64,000 nt of DNA. Origin: Sphingobium nicotianae (GTDB lineage: Bacteria; Pseudomonadota; Alphaproteobacteria; Sphingomonadales; Sphingomonadaceae). Below the pieces are notes generated by a model. It saw only the letters and a list, made by a program, of their open reading frames with translations, was not told the DNA's origin and did not search any database. This document shows positions 2,598 through 36,523 of the stretch, in pieces (position 1 is the stretch's first letter; every line of letters starts with the position of its first letter). Position numbers and translations under genes: made by a program. The DNA is taken from assembly GCF_018603885.1 (NCBI RefSeq), contig NZ_JAHGAW010000017.1:1-64000 (forward strand), in the 5' to 3' direction.

Positions 2598-3056
2598 GTG
2601 GACACCGCGACGATCGGCCTCGCCAGTGCTGAGGCGACGGAAGCCGTCGGGCGCCGGGTCGCGGAGGTTCTGCGCGCTGGGGACGTGCTGACGCTCGAAG
2701 GTGGGCTGGGTGCCGGCAAGACCACGCTGGCGCGGGGATTGCTGCGCGGTCTGGGATTCGCGGATGATGCGCCGAGCCCGACCTTTGCGATCCTGCAGGG
2801 CTATGAGCCGCCGGAGGTCCGTCTGCCGCTTGCTCATGTCGATCTCTACCGGATCGAGGAACCCGGCGAGATCGAGGAACTGGGGCTTGATGAGTGGCTG
2901 GAAGGCGGCGCGCTGGTCATCGAATGGCCTGATCGGCTCGACGGACGCTATGGGCAGATTGCCCTCGGAATAAGGCTCGATGTGATGGCGGATGGAACCC
3001 GTCACTTGACAGCGCGCCTGCCCAAGTCTTGGGAAGCGCGATGGCCCTTCACATGA
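2598..3056 (+). CDS. tsaE: tRNA threonylcarbamoyladenosine biosynthesis ATPase TsaE
   Basis: A 152-residue P-loop protein of the usual TsaE length. The Walker A motif GGLGAGKT is at residues 35-42, followed by the family's SPTFAI segment and the LAHVDLYRIE motif. TsaE works with TsaB and TsaD to attach threonylcarbamoyl to A37 of tRNAs that read ANN codons. The GTG start lies four bases after divL, and the stop overlaps the start of the next gene by ATGA, so translation is probably coupled. Confidence 0.93.
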   Translation: MDTATIGLASAEATEAVGRRVAEVLRAGDVLTLEGGLGAGKTTLARGLLRGLGFADDAPSPTFAILQGYEPPEVRLPLAHVDLYRIEEPGEIEELGLDEWLEGGALVIEWPDRLDGRYGQIALGIRLDVMADGTRHLTARLPKSWEARWPFT

Positions 3057-4042
3057 TCCCGCCCGATGGCGCTCCCGCATTTCTCGAGGCCGCTGGCTGG
3101 GGGAAGGCGCAGATCCTGCCGCTCGCTGGCGATGCCTCGTTCCGGCGCTATTTCCGCGTGGTCGACGGGGACCGGCGGGCGGTCCTCATGGATGCGCCGC
3201 CGCCCGAGGAGGATCCGCGTCCGTTCATCGCGGTCGGCGAGTGGCTCTGCGCGCATGGCTTCGCCGCGCCCGCGATCCTGGCGCGCGATCTGGCGCAGGG
3301 GCTGGTGCTGCTGGAGGATTTCGGCGATGAGCGGCTGCGCGAGCATGTCGATGCCGCGCCCGAAGAGGAAATGACGCTCTACCGGCGCGGTGTCGATCTG
3401 CTGGTGGATCTCCACGAGCTTCCGGCGCTGGACAGCCTGCCGCCCTATGATCGCGCCGTCTATGATCGCGAGACCGGCCTTCTGACCGAATGGTTCGCGC
3501 CGGCGGCCGGGCTTGATGTCGATGTCGCCGGCTATGCCGCAGCCTGGGAGAAGGTGTTGCCGATCGCCGAGCAGGATGCCGCGCCGATCGTCTCGGTGCT
3601 GCGCGACTATCATGCCGAGAACATCATGCTGCTGCCCGACAACACCCGCTCGCATGGCCTGGGGCTGCTTGATTTCCAGGACGCGCTGGCGGGCCATCCC
3701 GCCTATGATCTTGTCTCGTTCCTGCAGGACGCGCGGCGCGACGTGAGCCCATCCGTCGAGCAGGCGATGCTGGCTCACTACCAATCGCGCGCGCGCGTCT
3801 CGTCGGACTTCGAAGCCGCTTATGCCGTGCTCGGTGCTCAGCGAAACGCCAAGATCATCGGTATCTTCACCCGCCTGTGGAAGCGGGATGGCAAGCCGCG
3901 CTATCTCGATTTTCTACCGCGCATGTGGGGCCTGCTGGAGCGCGACCTCGCGCATCCGGCGCTCGCGCCCGTCGCGGACTGGTTCGCCGCCAATGTGCCG
4001 GACGAGGCGCGCGGACCGTTGCGAGTAGAAGGCGTCCAATGA
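3053..4042 (+). CDS. amgK: Anomeric N-acetylmuramate/N-acetylglucosamine kinase
   Basis: A 329-residue aminoglycoside-phosphotransferase-fold kinase. The catalytic loop reads DYHAENIML and the metal-binding motif is GLLDFQDAL; the N-terminal lobe carries the GDASFRRYFRV segment. AmgK phosphorylates the anomeric carbon of MurNAc and GlcNAc released from peptidoglycan, feeding MurU next door, and so bypasses de novo UDP-MurNAc synthesis (a route that gives fosfomycin tolerance in pseudomonads). I chose the ATG that forms an ATGA overlap with the tsaE stop; an upstream ATG (3041) or TTG (3029) in the same frame would add 4-8 residues. The pairing with murU is what fixes the substrate, because the fold alone is shared by many small-molecule kinases. 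Confidence 0.88.
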   Translation: MIPPDGAPAFLEAAGWGKAQILPLAGDASFRRYFRVVDGDRRAVLMDAPPPEEDPRPFIAVGEWLCAHGFAAPAILARDLAQGLVLLEDFGDERLREHVDAAPEEEMTLYRRGVDLLVDLHELPALDSLPPYDRAVYDRETGLLTEWFAPAAGLDVDVAGYAAAWEKVLPIAEQDAAPIVSVLRDYHAENIMLLPDNTRSHGLGLLDFQDALAGHPAYDLVSFLQDARRDVSPSVEQAMLAHYQSRARVSSDFEAAYAVLGAQRNAKIIGIFTRLWKRDGKPRYLDFLPRMWGLLERDLAHPALAPVADWFAANVPDEARGPLRVEGVQ

Positions 4043-4764
4043 CTCTCCGGCTCGACATCGCGATGCTGATGGCTGCGGGGCTCGGCAAGCGTATGCGCCC
4101 GCTGACGGTGACGCGCCCCAAGCCGCTGGTCAGGGTGGCGGGGCAGGCGTTGATCGACCATGCGCTCGACAAGGTCGAGGCGGCCGGCATCCGGCGTTCG
4201 ATCATCAACGTCCATTATCTCGCTGACTCGATCGAGGCTCATCTGCAGGCCCGCGCGCGCCAGACCGGGGCTGACTATGTGATCTCCGACGAGCGCGGCA
4301 AACTGCTCGAGACTGGCGGCGGCCTCGTGAAGGCCCTGCCGCTGATCGGCGACAAGCCCTTTCTCTGCGTCAATGCCGATGTGCTTTGGGTGGATGGGCC
4401 GACTGATGCGATCAGCGCGCTCTGCGCGCGCTGGAATCCGGCCATCATGGATGCGCTGTTGCTGCTGATCCCCTTCGCCCGGGCCAATGGCTATCCCGGT
4501 CGCGGCGACTTCCACATGGACCCGCAAGGACGCATAAGCCGCCGAAAGTCGGGGCGGGTGGCGCCATTCGTCTATTGCAGCGTGCAGATCCTGTCGCCCA
4601 GGCTCATCGTCGATCCGCCGTCGGACATCTTCTCGACGGGAGTTTTCTGGGATCGCGCCATCGCCGCCGGCCGCGCCTATGGGTTGGCGCACACCGGCAT
4701 GTGGTTCGACGTCGGGACGCCGCAGGCCATCCCGCTCGTCGAGGCCGCCATTGCCAGTGAGTGA
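4039..4764 (+). CDS. murU: N-acetylmuramate alpha-1-phosphate uridylyltransferase
   Basis: A 241-residue nucleotidyltransferase. The N-terminus has the signature MAAGLGKRMRPLT and then KPLV, typical of sugar-1-phosphate nucleotidyltransferases; the metal-binding Asp sits in the CVNADVLW segment. It makes UDP-MurNAc from MurNAc-1-phosphate, the second step of the AmgK-MurU recycling route. The ATG overlaps the amgK stop (ATGA), and the stop overlaps the addB GTG (GTGA). The same frame is open further upstream, but starting there would run deep into amgK and add residues foreign to the family. Confidence 0.9.
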   Translation: MTLRLDIAMLMAAGLGKRMRPLTVTRPKPLVRVAGQALIDHALDKVEAAGIRRSIINVHYLADSIEAHLQARARQTGADYVISDERGKLLETGGGLVKALPLIGDKPFLCVNADVLWVDGPTDAISALCARWNPAIMDALLLLIPFARANGYPGRGDFHMDPQGRISRRKSGRVAPFVYCSVQILSPRLIVDPPSDIFSTGVFWDRAIAAGRAYGLAHTGMWFDVGTPQAIPLVEAAIASE

Positions 4765-7700
4765 CGGGGCCAGTGGCTGAGCGCGCCGCACCCAAGCTCT
4801 ATACGATCCCCGCGCACCGGGCCTTTTCGGATGCGCTCGCAGCCGGGCTGCTGGCGCAGCATGGCCGCGCCGAGGGCGGTCTGGCGCTTGCGCGTGGCAT
4901 CGTGCTGTTGCCCAATAATCGCGCGATCCGCGCCGTGCGCGATGCCTTCGTGCGCGCATCGGGGACGGGCCTGCTGCTGCCCCGCCTGGTGCCTGTCGGT
5001 GATGTGGATCTCGACGAGACGCTCGGCAGCGCGCTTTCCCCGCTCGGTGCCGATGCAGCCATTCCGCCGGCGATCGCGCCGGCCGAGCGGCTGATGATCC
5101 TGACCCGCATGGTGCGCGACCGGCGGGCGCTCGCGGGGGACCGTCTCGAAATTGGCGAGGCGTGGCGGCTGGCGAACGCTTTCGCCAAGACGCTCGACCA
5201 GCTCACGGTCGAGCGCAAGGGACCGCACGACCTCAAGGCGCTGCAGCCGGAGGATCTCTCGGGCCACTGGCAGTCCGCGTTCGGTGAGTTCGAGGCGCTG
5301 GTCGAGCAATGGCAGCGTGAGCTGGCGGTGCGCGGCGTCATCGACATGGCCGAGCGGCGCAATCGGCTGCTCGATCATGTCGCCCGGCTGTGGCGGGAGA
5401 CCCCGCCCGATCGCTTCGTGGTCGCGGCGGGCATCGTCACCAATGCGCCGGCAGTGGCGGGCCTTCTCAAGACGGTCGCCGGCCTGCCGCAGGGCATGGT
5501 GGTGCTGCCCGACCTCGATCTAAACCTGACCGACGAGCAATGGGACGCGATCGGCCCGGTGACGCCCCCCGAACCGGGGCGCGATCTGCCGCCGCCCGCG
5601 CAGGAATCGCACCCGCAGTTCGCGCTCAAGCTGCTGTTGGAGCGAATGGATGCGCATCGCGACGAGGTCGCGCTGTGGCGCTGGGGAAGCGAGCATGATG
5701 CACGGGCTGTGCGGGGGAAGGCGATCAGCAATGCGCTTCTTCCGCCGCTGCTGACCGACATCTGGCCGGACGTGCCGACCGCGCAGCGCAGTCTGAAGGA
5801 TGTGCGCGCGATCGAGGCCGCCAATCCCGCAGAGGAAGCGCAGGCCATCGCCATCGCGCTGCGCGAGGCGATCGAGACGCCGGGGCGCACCGCCGCTTTG
5901 GTGACGCCTGATCGCGACCTCGCCACCCGCGTCTCCGCGCACTTGCGGCGCTGGGGCATCGATGCGGACGATTCCGCTGGCCGGCCACTCGCGCAGCTTC
6001 CGCCTGGCACCCTGCTGATCGCGCTTGCACAGGCGGCGGCGGAGCAGTTCGCCCCCGTGGCGCTGCTCGCGCTGCTCAAGCATCCGCTGGTAATGGCAGG
6101 CGACGCTCGGCTGCCCTGGTTGGAGCAGGTCCGCGCTCTCGACCTGTTGCTGCGCGGCCCCCGCCCGGCCGCTGGTTTGGCCGGGATCGCCGGCCTGCTC
6201 CGCGAGGAGGGAGAGCGGAGCGAGGCTCTGCGCTCGATGGTGCGGTCCTGGTGGCCCAGTGTCGCCGCCATGTTGGCGCCGATCGAAGCCGCTTTCGCAG
6301 GCGAGCGCCCGCTGGCCGACCTTTTTGCGGCGTTGCGCCAGGCGGCCTCGACACTGACCAACGAGCGCGTCTGGTCCGGGCATCAGGGGCACGACGCCGC
6401 GCGAACTTTCGCCGATGCGGAGGCTGCCGCTGTCCATGGCCCGGTGACGGCCGAGCCATCAGGATTCGTCGGTATGCTCGGCCAAATACTGGGCGCGGTC
6501 GCCATCCGTCCGCCGCAGGGCGGTCATCCGCGCCTGCAGATCCTTGGTCTGCTCGAAGCGCGGTTGCAGCAGGCCGATCTCATGATCCTTGCCGGTCTGA
6601 ACGAGGGAGTTTGGCCGGGCCTGCCGTCGCCCGATCCATGGCTGGCGCCGCGCATCCGCCGCGCGCTCGGGTTGCCGGGGCTGGACTATCGCATCGGCCT
6701 GTCCGCCCATGATTTCGCCAATGGGCTCGGCGCGCCACAGGTCATTCTGTCGCGCGCCCGGCGGGATCGCAGCGCGCCGACTGTCGCTTCGCGCTTCTGG
6801 CTGCGCCTCAAGGCCATGACTGGTGAGCGCTGGGTCGCCGATCGCCGCCTGATCACCCTGGCCGGTGCGATCGACCGACCGGCCCACTCTGCACCCGCCT
6901 ATCAGCCGCCTGCGCCATCGCCGCCGCGAGGCCTGCGCCCGGTCGAGATTGCTGTCACCGATGTCGACCGGTTGCGCGCCGATCCTTACGCTTTCTATGC
7001 CGCCAAGATCCTGCGCCTGTCCGCGCTGGAGCCGGTCGATGCCGATCCCGGCCCGGCCTGGCGGGGCACACGCGCGCACGACGTTCTGCAACGCTGGATG
7101 GAGGAAGGAAGCAGCGATCCCGCGTCTCTCGCGGCACTGGCGAGTGAGATGATCGGGCAGGCCGCAGGGCATCCCTTGCTCAAGGCATTGTGGCAGCCGC
7201 GCCTGTTGGCCGCGCTCGACTGGGTGGCGGAGGAGGTCAGTACGCAAGCGAAGACGGGACGCAGCGTTGCGTTTGGCGAGCAATGGGGCAAGATCGTGCG
7301 CGGCGGCGTCACCTTGCGAGGCAAGCCGGATCGGGTCGACCGGCTGCTCGATGGGTCTGTCGCGATCATCGACTACAAGAGCGGCTCCACCGCGACCGTC
7401 AATCAGGTGCGGGCCGGCTACTCGCTCCAGCTCGGCCTGCTCGGCCTGATCGCGCGGGAGGGCGGCTTCGAGGCAGTGGCGCGGGGCACGGCGGTCAGCG
7501 CTTTCGAATATTGGAAACTCAACAAGGACAGCAAGGGACAGTTCGGCCACAAGCGTGTGCTGACCGATCCAAAAGGCAGCTACAAGCGGATCGTGACGGA
7601 GGAGTTTCTGCCGCTCGTCGAGCGGTTCTTCGATGAGGCGGCCGCCGCATGGCTCACCGGGACCGAACCCTTCGCCGCGCGCCCGCACAGCGACGCGCCG

Positions 7701-33690: not shown

Positions 33691-34110
33691 TCAGGCGACG
33701 ACCTGCTCGATCGTCCGCCGCAGCTGAAAAGACGACACCGGCTTGAACAGGGTCGCCGCGGCATGGTCGAGCGCAATCCGGTCGATCGTGGCCTGTTCGC
33801 GCGATCCTGTGATGAAGATGACCTTGGAGCCGACCCGCGCGTGGATTGCGAGCGCGGCGTCGACGCCGTCGCCTTCGCCCTTGAGCCGCATGTCCATGAG
33901 CACGAGTCCGGGCGCATGCCGGGCGGCGAGATCGATCGCGTCGCCCGCACTTGCGGCAATACCGCATACCTCGATGCCCATGTCCTGGAGTTGCACCCGC
34001 AACCCCTCCGCGATGATGAACTCGTCCTCGACGACGAGCGCGCAATTGATCGATGTCAGACCAGTTTCGGCGTTGGCAGCGTGACCCTTGCCATCGTCCC
34101 TTTTTGCCAT
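33691..34110 (-). CDS. Single-domain response regulator
   Basis: A 139-residue receiver domain with no output domain. Acidic pocket Glu28-Asp29, phospho-acceptor Asp73 in LVLMDMRLKG, Thr/Ser in FITGSRE and Lys in LFKPVSS are all present. It starts inside the 3' end of the upstream histidine kinase gene (55-base overlap), making it that kinase's evident partner. Single-domain regulators of HWE/HisKA_2 kinases in sphingomonads often act as phosphate shuttles or sinks, for example in the general stress response. Confidence 0.9.
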   Translation of the reverse strand: MAKRDDGKGHAANAETGLTSINCALVVEDEFIIAEGLRVQLQDMGIEVCGIAASAGDAIDLAARHAPGLVLMDMRLKGEGDGVDAALAIHARVGSKVIFITGSREQATIDRIALDHAAATLFKPVSSFQLRRTIEQVVA

Positions 34111-35279
34111 TGAATGTCCATCCGTCCCTGTAATTGTTGCACCAGCCCCTGAATCAACCGCTTGCCGAGCCCCGTCCGGGAGGCTTCGTCCGTCTTGTCG
34201 CCCTGGCCGTTGTCGGCGACCGTGACGTCGATCCGGTCATCCTCCGCGTGCCGGACGAGTGTCACCGATATCCTGCCGTTGCCGTCGGGGAAAGCATGCT
34301 TGATCGCATTCGTGACCAGCTCAGTGACAAGCAGGCCGAGCGGCACCGCATAATCGAGATTGACCGGCAGCTCGTCCGCCTCGACCTCCAGCGCGATATC
34401 GCCCATCGCGCCGGCCGCGACGACATTCTCGGCAAGCTCCTTGAGAAAGGGCGCGATGTCAAACGTCTGCAGATCGCGCGAGGTCATGAGCTGCTGGTGG
34501 ACGAGGCCGAGCGCGTAGATCCGGCTGCGCAGCGACTGGAGCGCGGCACGGGCTCTCTCGTCGTTCAGCTCGCCTTCCTGCATGGTGATGATCGCGTCGA
34601 CGATCTGGAGATTGTTCTTCACCCGGTGATACACCTCGCGCAGCAGCAGGTTGCGCTGCTGGAGCGCGTCCTCGCGCTCCTTCACCATCCCCACCAGCTC
34701 CTCGCGCGTCTCGCGCAGATCTTCCAGCGTTGCTTCCAGGCTGGCATTCGCGCTCGTCAGATCGGCGGTGCGCTGCACCACGCGTGCTTCCAGCTCGGCA
34801 TTGGCGCTGCGCACCCGCTCTTCGCTGGCGATGAGAAGGTGATTGGTGCGCTCCTGCTCGTCGATCTTGTTCGACAAGGCGACATTCAGGGCGGTCATCT
34901 GGGTCGGCGAGGGGAGGGCGAGCAGGCGCGGGATGAGCGGCCAGAGCAGACCCGCGGTGATGACGGAGAGGATCGCGGTGACCAGCTTGAGGAGGCCCTC
35001 GACGCCGTAGGCGGCGACCCACAGGACATAGACGGACATGAAGTGCGTCATGCCGCAGGCCATGATGAAGCCCACGAACAGATAGACGATCCAGCGGAAT
35101 TCCACGTCTTTGCGGCGCATCAGGAAGTAAGTGAGCGCGACGGGGATCGAGAAATAGGCAAGGCCGATCACGATGTCCGAAATCGCGTGGAGCCAGATGA
35201 GGCCGGGCGCCCAGGTCAGGCAGAAGCCATGCGGCGTCAGGCCCGTCGGATTGACCAGCCAGCTCCAGATATCGTTCAT
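34056..35279 (-). CDS. Histidine kinase with an ETR1-like (ethylene-receptor) membrane domain
   Basis: A 407-residue kinase. The first ~122 residues hold three membrane helices that match the plant ETR1 sensor domain: SDIVIGLAYFSIP and FIMACGMTHF, with Asp35, Tyr42, Ile72, Cys75 and His79 in the same spacing as ETR1 Asp25, Tyr32, Ile62, Cys65 and His69. Cys65 and His69 bind Cu(I), the ethylene cofactor. The third helix (LLKLVTAILSVITAGLL) also fits. A coiled coil (about 136-210) leads to a HisKA_2 H-box with His218 (REVYHRVKNNLQIV) and an HATPase domain (ELVTNAIKHAF, VADNGQGD). There is no GAF domain. ATG start preceded by AGGGGGA. Same operon as the single-domain regulator. Ligand binding is inferred, not shown; bacterial proteins with this domain are known, e.g. 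in Synechocystis. Confidence 0.85.
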   Translation of the reverse strand: MNDIWSWLVNPTGLTPHGFCLTWAPGLIWLHAISDIVIGLAYFSIPVALTYFLMRRKDVEFRWIVYLFVGFIMACGMTHFMSVYVLWVAAYGVEGLLKLVTAILSVITAGLLWPLIPRLLALPSPTQMTALNVALSNKIDEQERTNHLLIASEERVRSANAELEARVVQRTADLTSANASLEATLEDLRETREELVGMVKEREDALQQRNLLLREVYHRVKNNLQIVDAIITMQEGELNDERARAALQSLRSRIYALGLVHQQLMTSRDLQTFDIAPFLKELAENVVAAGAMGDIALEVEADELPVNLDYAVPLGLLVTELVTNAIKHAFPDGNGRISVTLVRHAEDDRIDVTVADNGQGDKTDEASRTGLGKRLIQGLVQQLQGRMDIQWQKGTMARVTLPTPKLV

Positions 35280-35458: not shown

Positions 35459-36523
35459 ATGAGGTCGCAAGCAGTGCCACAACGGATCATAGCGCTCTTT
35501 GAGCAGGTCAGGGATCACATCGACGCGTTTGGCGATGCCAATGGATCGATCGTCCGCCAGATTCGCCTGCTCGCGCTCAACGCCGCCATTGAGGCGGCCC
35601 GGTCCGGCGAAGCGGGGCGGGGTTTTTCCGTTGTCGCCCAGGAAGTGAAAGCGCTGGCCGAGCAGGCCAGCTGCGTATCCGGCACCTTTGGCGAGGGCAT
35701 CAGCAGTAGCATCCGCGCCGGCGCCATGGTTGCAGGCCAGCTCACCGAGGAACTCGAAACGGGTCGACTGCTCGATCGGGCACACTCCCTGGCTCAGTCG
35801 GTCATCGGCCTGGTTGCGGGCCGCGCGGGCGAGGTCTGCACGCTCGCGACCGACAGCGATCTCCACAATGCGCTGGTGGCGCCCTCCAGCGAAACGATCG
35901 CGACGGCCGAGGCACGCCTGGCCCTGTTTACATCCTGCTCCCCTTTCTATCGCAATATCTTCATCGCCGATCGTGCCGGCAATGTCGTCGCCTCCGCTGA
36001 TGCCTCGTCCGCTGCGCAAGCCGGCAACATCTCGGACAGGACGAGCTTCAGCAGGGCGCTGATGCTTTCCTCGGCCACGCAATGGCAGGTGGGCGAGGTC
36101 TGGCAGACGCCCTGGCAGAAGGACCGTGTCTCGCTGATGCTGAGCGGCGGCGTGCGGCACTGCACGGATCCGCACGGCTCGCCGGCCGGCGTCGTGGTCC
36201 TCGAGTTCGACTGGGGCACCCAGATCGGCGCCATGCTCGCGGCCGCCGCCAGTTCGAGCAGCGAAGCGGATCGCACGCGCCTGACGCTGATCGATGCGGA
36301 CCGCCGCATCGTCGCCTCGTCGTGGGGCGCTCCGTTCGGCGAGAAGGTCGCCCTGCATTGCGGCGACCGGCGCGGCATCGAGCGGGATGCGGACGCCGTG
36401 ACGGCCTATGCCAAGGCGCTCCCCCACAAGGGCCTCGACGGGCTCGGCCTGACCTGCCTCGTCGAGAAACGCCGGCTCACCCATGACGAAGTCCGCTCGA
36501 GCCTGAGCCGCGCCGCTGCCTGA
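35459..36523 (+). CDS. Soluble chemoreceptor-like protein, signalling tip N-terminal and Cache-like sensor C-terminal
   Basis: A 354-residue protein with no membrane helix or signal peptide. Residues 37-68 are the conserved hairpin tip of methyl-accepting chemotaxis proteins ([20 protein letters not shown], then [12 protein letters not shown]), which contacts CheA and CheW. The arms on either side are much shorter than in normal receptors. After the hairpin, residues ~150-280 resemble a Cache/PAS-like sensor ([19 protein letters not shown]), followed by a second sensor-like segment ([15 protein letters not shown]). The usual order is sensor first, signalling domain last. An in-frame start at 35315 would extend into the kinase's promoter; the ATG at 35459 is preferred. 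Confidence 0.75.

Follow-up and report, generated by a model that had tools for sequence, protein, structure and literature searches.

Results

The 64,000-nt stretch of Sphingobium nicotianae DNA analysed here (the window) carries on its minus strand a gene for a histidine kinase of 407 residues (34056..35279; start codon ATG at 35277-35279, stop codon ending at 34056), followed by a gene for a single-domain response regulator (33691..34110) whose ORF overlaps it by 55 nt. In Pfam searches, residues 27-122 of the kinase matched the ethylene-binding-type domain ETR1_N (PF25487) with an E-value of 4.9e-37 and 126.5 bits against a curated cut-off of 27, and the profile matched none of 14 control genomes, so that a chance match can be excluded. 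The N-terminal segment and three predicted helices (residues 1-125; 34905..35279) lead through a helical linker to a HisKA_2 domain (residues 215-287, 34419..34637; 9.4e-20), with the predicted phospho-acceptor His218 (34626-34628) in YHRVKNN, and to a HATPase_c domain (residues 313-404, 34068..34343; 6.4e-12); the motifs HRVKNN, ELVTN and DNGQG stand at residues 218, 320 and 356. Hydropathy windows above 1.6 at residues 27-54, 59-89 and 85-122 fit three helices, as judged by hydropathy only. Up to E = 1, Pfam found neither GAF nor PAS in the kinase, which thus lacks the GAF domain that follows the sensor in plant-type ETR1/ERS1, and a profile search for solved structures related to the ETR1_N domain gave no match. 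An earlier sequence-only reading had described an ETR1-like sensor with a HisKA_2 output, a co-encoded single-domain regulator and no GAF domain. The ORF, coordinates and residues that it named agree with the ORF list and our residue check, the profile search it had suggested assigns the sensor to ETR1_N, with no match to an unrelated family, and Pfam agrees on the other three points. A longer kinase ORF from 35369 is an unlikely gene, because the start at 35279 is the one with which relatives agree when trimmed to a Met equally far from the domain. In the genome as a whole, profile searches found one ETR1_N protein, seven HisKA_2 matches and one full-length PhyR.

All seven ethylene-binding positions are intact in the kinase (D35, Y42, I45, P46, I72, C75 and H79). 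Through the numbering of AzoEtr1 from Azospirillum brasilense, Asp35 (35175..35177, minus strand) is equivalent to ETR1 Asp25, and Cys75 (35055..35057) and His79 (35043..35045), on the same strand, to ETR1 Cys65 and His69; the latter two are predicted Cu(I) ligands. Seven residues of AtETR1 have been reported to be necessary for ethylene binding, with D25, C65 and H69 among those named in the available part of the source. Y42, I45, P46 and I72 of the window kinase are presumably the remaining four of the set. The ETR1 spacing, previously described as gapless, is indeed so from D25 to H69 but not after helix 2, where the offset shifts; the window kinase has a lysine at position 98, as does AzoEtr1, whose K98 corresponds to ETR1 K91 in the available part of its description (PMC11819568). 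Over residues 16-109, the ethylene-binding domains (EBDs) of AzoEtr1 and the window kinase are 56.4% identical. The authors of the AzoEtr1 study number its critical residues, in the part of the text available, as D35, C75, H79 and K98, and report saturable binding of radiolabelled ethylene by its first 130 residues (PMC11819568). It is mainly this combination of identity, equal residue numbers and reported binding that leads us to expect binding of Cu(I) and ethylene by the window kinase. The site residues are almost invariant among 83 rows chosen by profile, with D35 in 77, Y42 in 75, C75 in 77 and H79 in 79.

A further motif, PHGxC (P16 H17 G18 F19 C20; 35220..35234, minus strand), precedes helix 1 and is not covered by the Pfam model. 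Its His stands exactly 18 residues ahead of the Asp in 100 of 100 distinct EBDs, a set biased to close relatives, which was drawn by a pattern excluding PHGxC from 129 of 136 source sequences (the window, L001-L133, L162 and L163). The pattern missed L059, L066, L098, L103, L125, L128 and L162; the last, AzoEtr1, lacks an Ile that the pattern requires, yet reads PHGVC. When rows were instead chosen by profile only (83 rows, comprising the window and 82 loci, with 6 of 88 loci dropped as too short for automatic placing), H17 was present in 74 and C20 in 75. With L001, a copy of the window, excluded, both residues occur in 70 of the 71 rows that have the site Asp, Cys and His versus 1 of the 11 that do not (Fisher value 5.6e-11, which ignores relatedness), the exceptions being L212 and L213. 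Because relatedness is ignored, some of the 11 site-less rows are poorly aligned or broken upstream (e.g. L185), and diverged proteins lose many residues together, we treat this link as an association rather than proof, and as a small new lead drawn from alignments. Degenerate ETR1_N domains that have lost the site residues are seen on kinase-sized ORFs in L212, L213, L214, L215 and L216.

The regulator consists of a receiver domain (7.2e-16 in Pfam) with the predicted phospho-acceptor Asp73 at 33892-33894, and its start codon is uncertain. At 34054-34110, the window and a second genome of the genus, G090, read CTGA instead of the ATGA-type stop/start overlap (ATG, TTG or GTG) of most relatives; translation of the regulator may begin in these two genomes at this CTG or at an ATG that lies in frame 54 nt upstream of it. 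The relatives sampled were the best 80 of more than 572 in a genome collection, together with 20 loci from further genomes, and 11 of them are kinases with the motif YHRVKNNLQ. In this sample, a receiver gene overlaps or abuts the downstream end of all 11 (12 of 12 with the window), and ETR1_N plus HisKA_2 were found by Pfam in all nine that were scanned. The carriers among the loci sampled are G090, a Rhizorhapis, the metagenome-assembled genomes (MAGs) L055 and L057, a Phenylobacterium, two Caulobacter, three Nitrospirillum and Azospirillum sp. B4. A tree of 101 EBDs, built on only 108 columns and with many unresolved forks, unites the 12 kinases, which span several alphaproteobacterial orders, with the contig-truncated L056 in one clade (support 98/95). 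The linkers within the clade differ, having zero, one or two PAS-like insertions. HisKA_2 kinase and regulator form a conserved cassette, which looks like a distinct variant of the known bacterial ethylene receptors.

By motif, the outputs behind the 101 EBDs are NtrB-like in 59, HWE in 12, HisKA in nine, HisKA_2 in 13 and unassigned in eight. We rejected the idea that a HisKA_2 output is unique to the cassette, since HRVKNN kinases also stand behind the EBD in the cyanobacterial L163 and in L164, L172 and L178 of the class sample. L163 falls apart from the cassette clade in the EBD tree, from which the other three were left out; no regulator directly follows the kinase in L164 or L172, and the one in L178 precedes it. 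In L163, from Kovacikia, the kinase part of the ETR1_N-type protein (2947-5241, plus strand) reads HHRVKNN, and the ORF downstream, which overlaps this gene, opens with a receiver domain. Stand-alone ETR1_N proteins of about 138-140 residues occur in L169 (1423-1839) and L173 (1429-1851), both on the match strand and each with a distinct ORF for a membrane protein directly behind it, so that they are possibly split receptors; L188 is arranged similarly, with a degenerate domain. In L165 (1258-2520, match strand), the ETR1_N ORF stops and is succeeded by an HDFNN kinase ORF in a different frame, as in a split or frameshifted receptor.

Divergently from the cassette, on the plus strand, lies a gene for an MCP-signalling/Cache-like protein (35459..36523; Pfam); the two carriers of the genus both have this gene next to the cassette. 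An MCP-signalling stretch (1e-16) lies at the N-terminus, ahead of a weak Cache match (2.4e-8, below the cut-off), the reverse of the domain order usual in chemoreceptors. Its only close homologue among 94 genomes of the genus is in G090 (68% identity), the next best reaching 33%. The gene order, namely SPFH protein, HpcH/HpaI-type lyase, the block of regulator-kinase and MCP-like gene, IMP dehydrogenase and RsmB, is identical in G090, and among 30 loci with the lyase gene (about 1.5 kb on each side) the cassette adjoins it only in these two genomes. Between lyase and IMP dehydrogenase, G046 has 679 nt, G061 532 nt and G059 4158 nt with other genes. In G057, a fragment of the 3' end of the MCP-like gene (residues 316-353; L268:5007-5121) directly follows the lyase gene, which points to loss of the block there. 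As the two carriers are sisters, however, their common neighbours may reflect mere inheritance.

The cassette was found in 2 of the 94 genomes of the genus. ETR1_N itself matched in 5 of those 94, in 34 of 296 genomes of the order, in 28 of 385 of the class and in 28 of 398 of the phylum, in samples that overlap; its presence in five genomes of the genus, with the cassette in two, indicates that the function is dispensable. That bacterial proteins with this domain are known had been noted before, and the phylum sample shows them to be commoner than the Synechocystis example then cited implies. No match was found in the phage collection, which gives no sign of a phage origin. Eighteen plasmid records matched the EBD (best identity 60.2%), and the cassette was identified in none of them. 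Nitrospirillum, Azospirillum, Rhizorhapis and the Caulobacter 'Root' isolates are plant-associated, and further carriers come from MAGs with no plant link stated. ACC deaminase, which we took as a sign of plant life, was not found in the genome of the window. A plant link of the cassette is only suggested.

Discussion

Taken as a whole, the locus is best explained as a two-component system whose kinase serves as a bacterial ethylene receptor, a reading to which we assign a probability of roughly 0.75. By analogy with its relatives, the kinase is very probably a Cu(I)/ethylene sensor, and binding of both ligands, considered by itself, is to be expected with good confidence. We propose that the three-helix N-terminal domain would hold Cu(I) via Cys75 and His79, with Asp35 close by, and that ethylene would bind at this copper. 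Binding might then alter the packing of the helices, with helix 3 and the linker relaying the signal to the HisKA_2 kinase, whose activity ethylene would lower if it behaves as its relatives do. Asp73 of the regulator encoded alongside would receive the phosphate of His218, a transfer predicted from the family. Lacking an output domain, the regulator may act by contacting other proteins or by shuttling phosphate.

The same ligands would also suit a sensor of copper itself, or of another small Cu(I) ligand such as CO or another alkene, in which case the domain would bind copper and the kinase would report a metal or gas state rather than ethylene. The PHGxC motif, kept in nearly every protein with an intact site (70 of 71), looks like additional metal- or redox-handling, and no ethylene-related gene was found among ten neighbours scanned, in a genome that lacks ACC deaminase. 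However, copper-handling genes were equally absent from those ten neighbours, the whole seven-residue set is kept beyond the metal ligands, and AzoEtr1, with the same residue set, binds ethylene (PMC11819568). We consider a copper or gas signal improbable. Decay is less credible still. Degenerate ETR1_N domains do occur (e.g. L212-L216), and the near relative L268 retains a mere piece of the neighbouring MCP gene, so the kinase could in principle be a constitutive relic with a decayed sensor. In the window, by contrast, site residues, kinase motifs and regulator are all intact, and the G090 copies, which share 76% identity with the kinase and 77% with the regulator, retain the same residues; a relic is extremely improbable.

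Where the signal of such a receptor would go beyond the regulator is a matter for guesses. The output of AzoEtr1 cannot be transferred to the window kinase, as its kinase class is different. Our best guess, a tentative one with the odds somewhat against it, is the network of HisKA_2/HWE phosphorelays that leads into the general stress response of Alphaproteobacteria, where kinase and regulator would act like LovK-LovR or an MrrA/SdrG-type hub and ethylene would tune PhyR-EcfG; this is compatible with the ethylene-receptor explanation, and the link is plausible from profile matches. The best NCBIfam match of the kinase is PhyK, with 148.3 bits over residues 181-401, although far below the equivalog cut-off of 750 (NF051872), so that membership of PhyK was rejected. 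Two kinases of the clade score comparably (L054 143, L061 148.5); two further HisKA_2 kinases from the genome of the window reach 96 and 77, and three more that were tested are nearer to LOV kinases. The regulator ranks third of 14 PhyR-profile matches in the genome (73.4 bits, PhyR itself 336) and scores 74.9 bits against the PhyR receiver of NCBIfam (cut-off 240), but such receiver matches are generic, with 10 of the 14 control genomes also matching. A further point against this output is that GGAAC-N16/17-CGTT, which we take to be the EcfG promoter motif, has no occurrence in the window (0.64 expected) and no near match in the 300 nt ahead of any of the 12 cassette kinases. Most HWE/HisKA_2 kinases of Caulobacter and Sphingomonas converge on such a hub, according to the available part of the source (PMC5964349). 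The FATGUY motif of MrrA/SdrG, given there as PFXFATG(G/Y), is, however, missing from the regulator, which reads KVIFITGS, the other 11 having FITGS, FVTGS or FITAS; membership of that group was rejected. Control of motility, surface attachment or biofilm, with the divergent MCP/Cache protein as partner, is our next guess. It concerns the output only, and would fit the position of the MCP-like gene, a neighbour of the cassette in each of the two carriers within the genus, and the effects of ethylene on phototaxis and biofilm in Synechocystis and on biofilm in Azospirillum, as available excerpts report. Yet a comparison of neighbouring genes did not find the MCP gene next to the cassette in any of the 10 carriers outside the genus, and the two sisters may simply have inherited their neighbours, so we regard this output as unlikely. 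More speculative again is a mobile two-gene ethylene cassette that feeds through a HisKA_2 hub into the alphaproteobacterial stress response, with PHGxC as a second copper-handling element lost by plants, and we would bet against this combination.

Bacterial ethylene receptors are already known; what differs here is the HisKA_2 cassette and the PHGxC association. AzoEtr1/AzoRR-etr1, as far as the available text describes it, resembles the window system in its ETR1_N domain, equal residue numbers, membrane histidine kinase and a lone receiver encoded by a downstream gene that overlaps the kinase gene (PMC11819568). A co-encoded lone regulator, part of the combination that the sequence-only reading called unlike plant receptors, is therefore not unusual for bacterial ethylene receptors. 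In contrast, AzoEtr1, which is located on plasmid ABSP7_p1, combines a PAS domain with a kinase of the HisKA class (HEMSQP) that gives no HisKA_2 match; its EBD falls outside the cassette clade and its regulator belongs to a different sequence type. SynEtr1 of Synechocystis (slr1212/UirS) has, in the accounts available in part, a light-sensing cyanobacteriochrome domain, unlike the window kinase with neither PAS nor GAF, and its regulator is reported to raise csiR1 transcription. Plant ETR1, described in similarly partial sources, shares the three-helix Cu(I) site with Asp25, Cys65 and His69, which in the window is predicted from residues, but combines it with GAF, a HisKA-type kinase and a fused receiver in place of HisKA_2 and a separate receiver, and has two N-terminal cysteines where the window kinase has PHGxC with one. 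To our knowledge, the His of PHGxC is absent from plant receptors, and the available parts of the sources make no mention of this His or of its constant spacing. LovK-LovR and the MrrA/SdrG relay likewise pair a HisKA_2/HWE kinase with a single-domain receiver lacking an output, but with an unrelated sensor domain and, as the available part of the source describes it, a FATGUY motif that the window regulator lacks (PMC5964349). We found no paper that joins an ethylene receptor to Sphingomonas, histidine kinase and copper, or to the general stress response of Alphaproteobacteria, although papers that mention ethylene receptors together with HisKA_2 exist; as most subscription papers lie outside our coverage, we claim no priority.

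Few bacterial ethylene receptors, those of Synechocystis and Azospirillum, have been tested according to the available part of the literature. The window kinase adds a third kinase wiring, testable where HisKA_2 networks are well mapped, as in the cassette-carrying relatives of Caulobacter. Furthermore, PHGxC offers a mutable candidate for how bacterial receptors may obtain or guard their copper, or hold the dimer.
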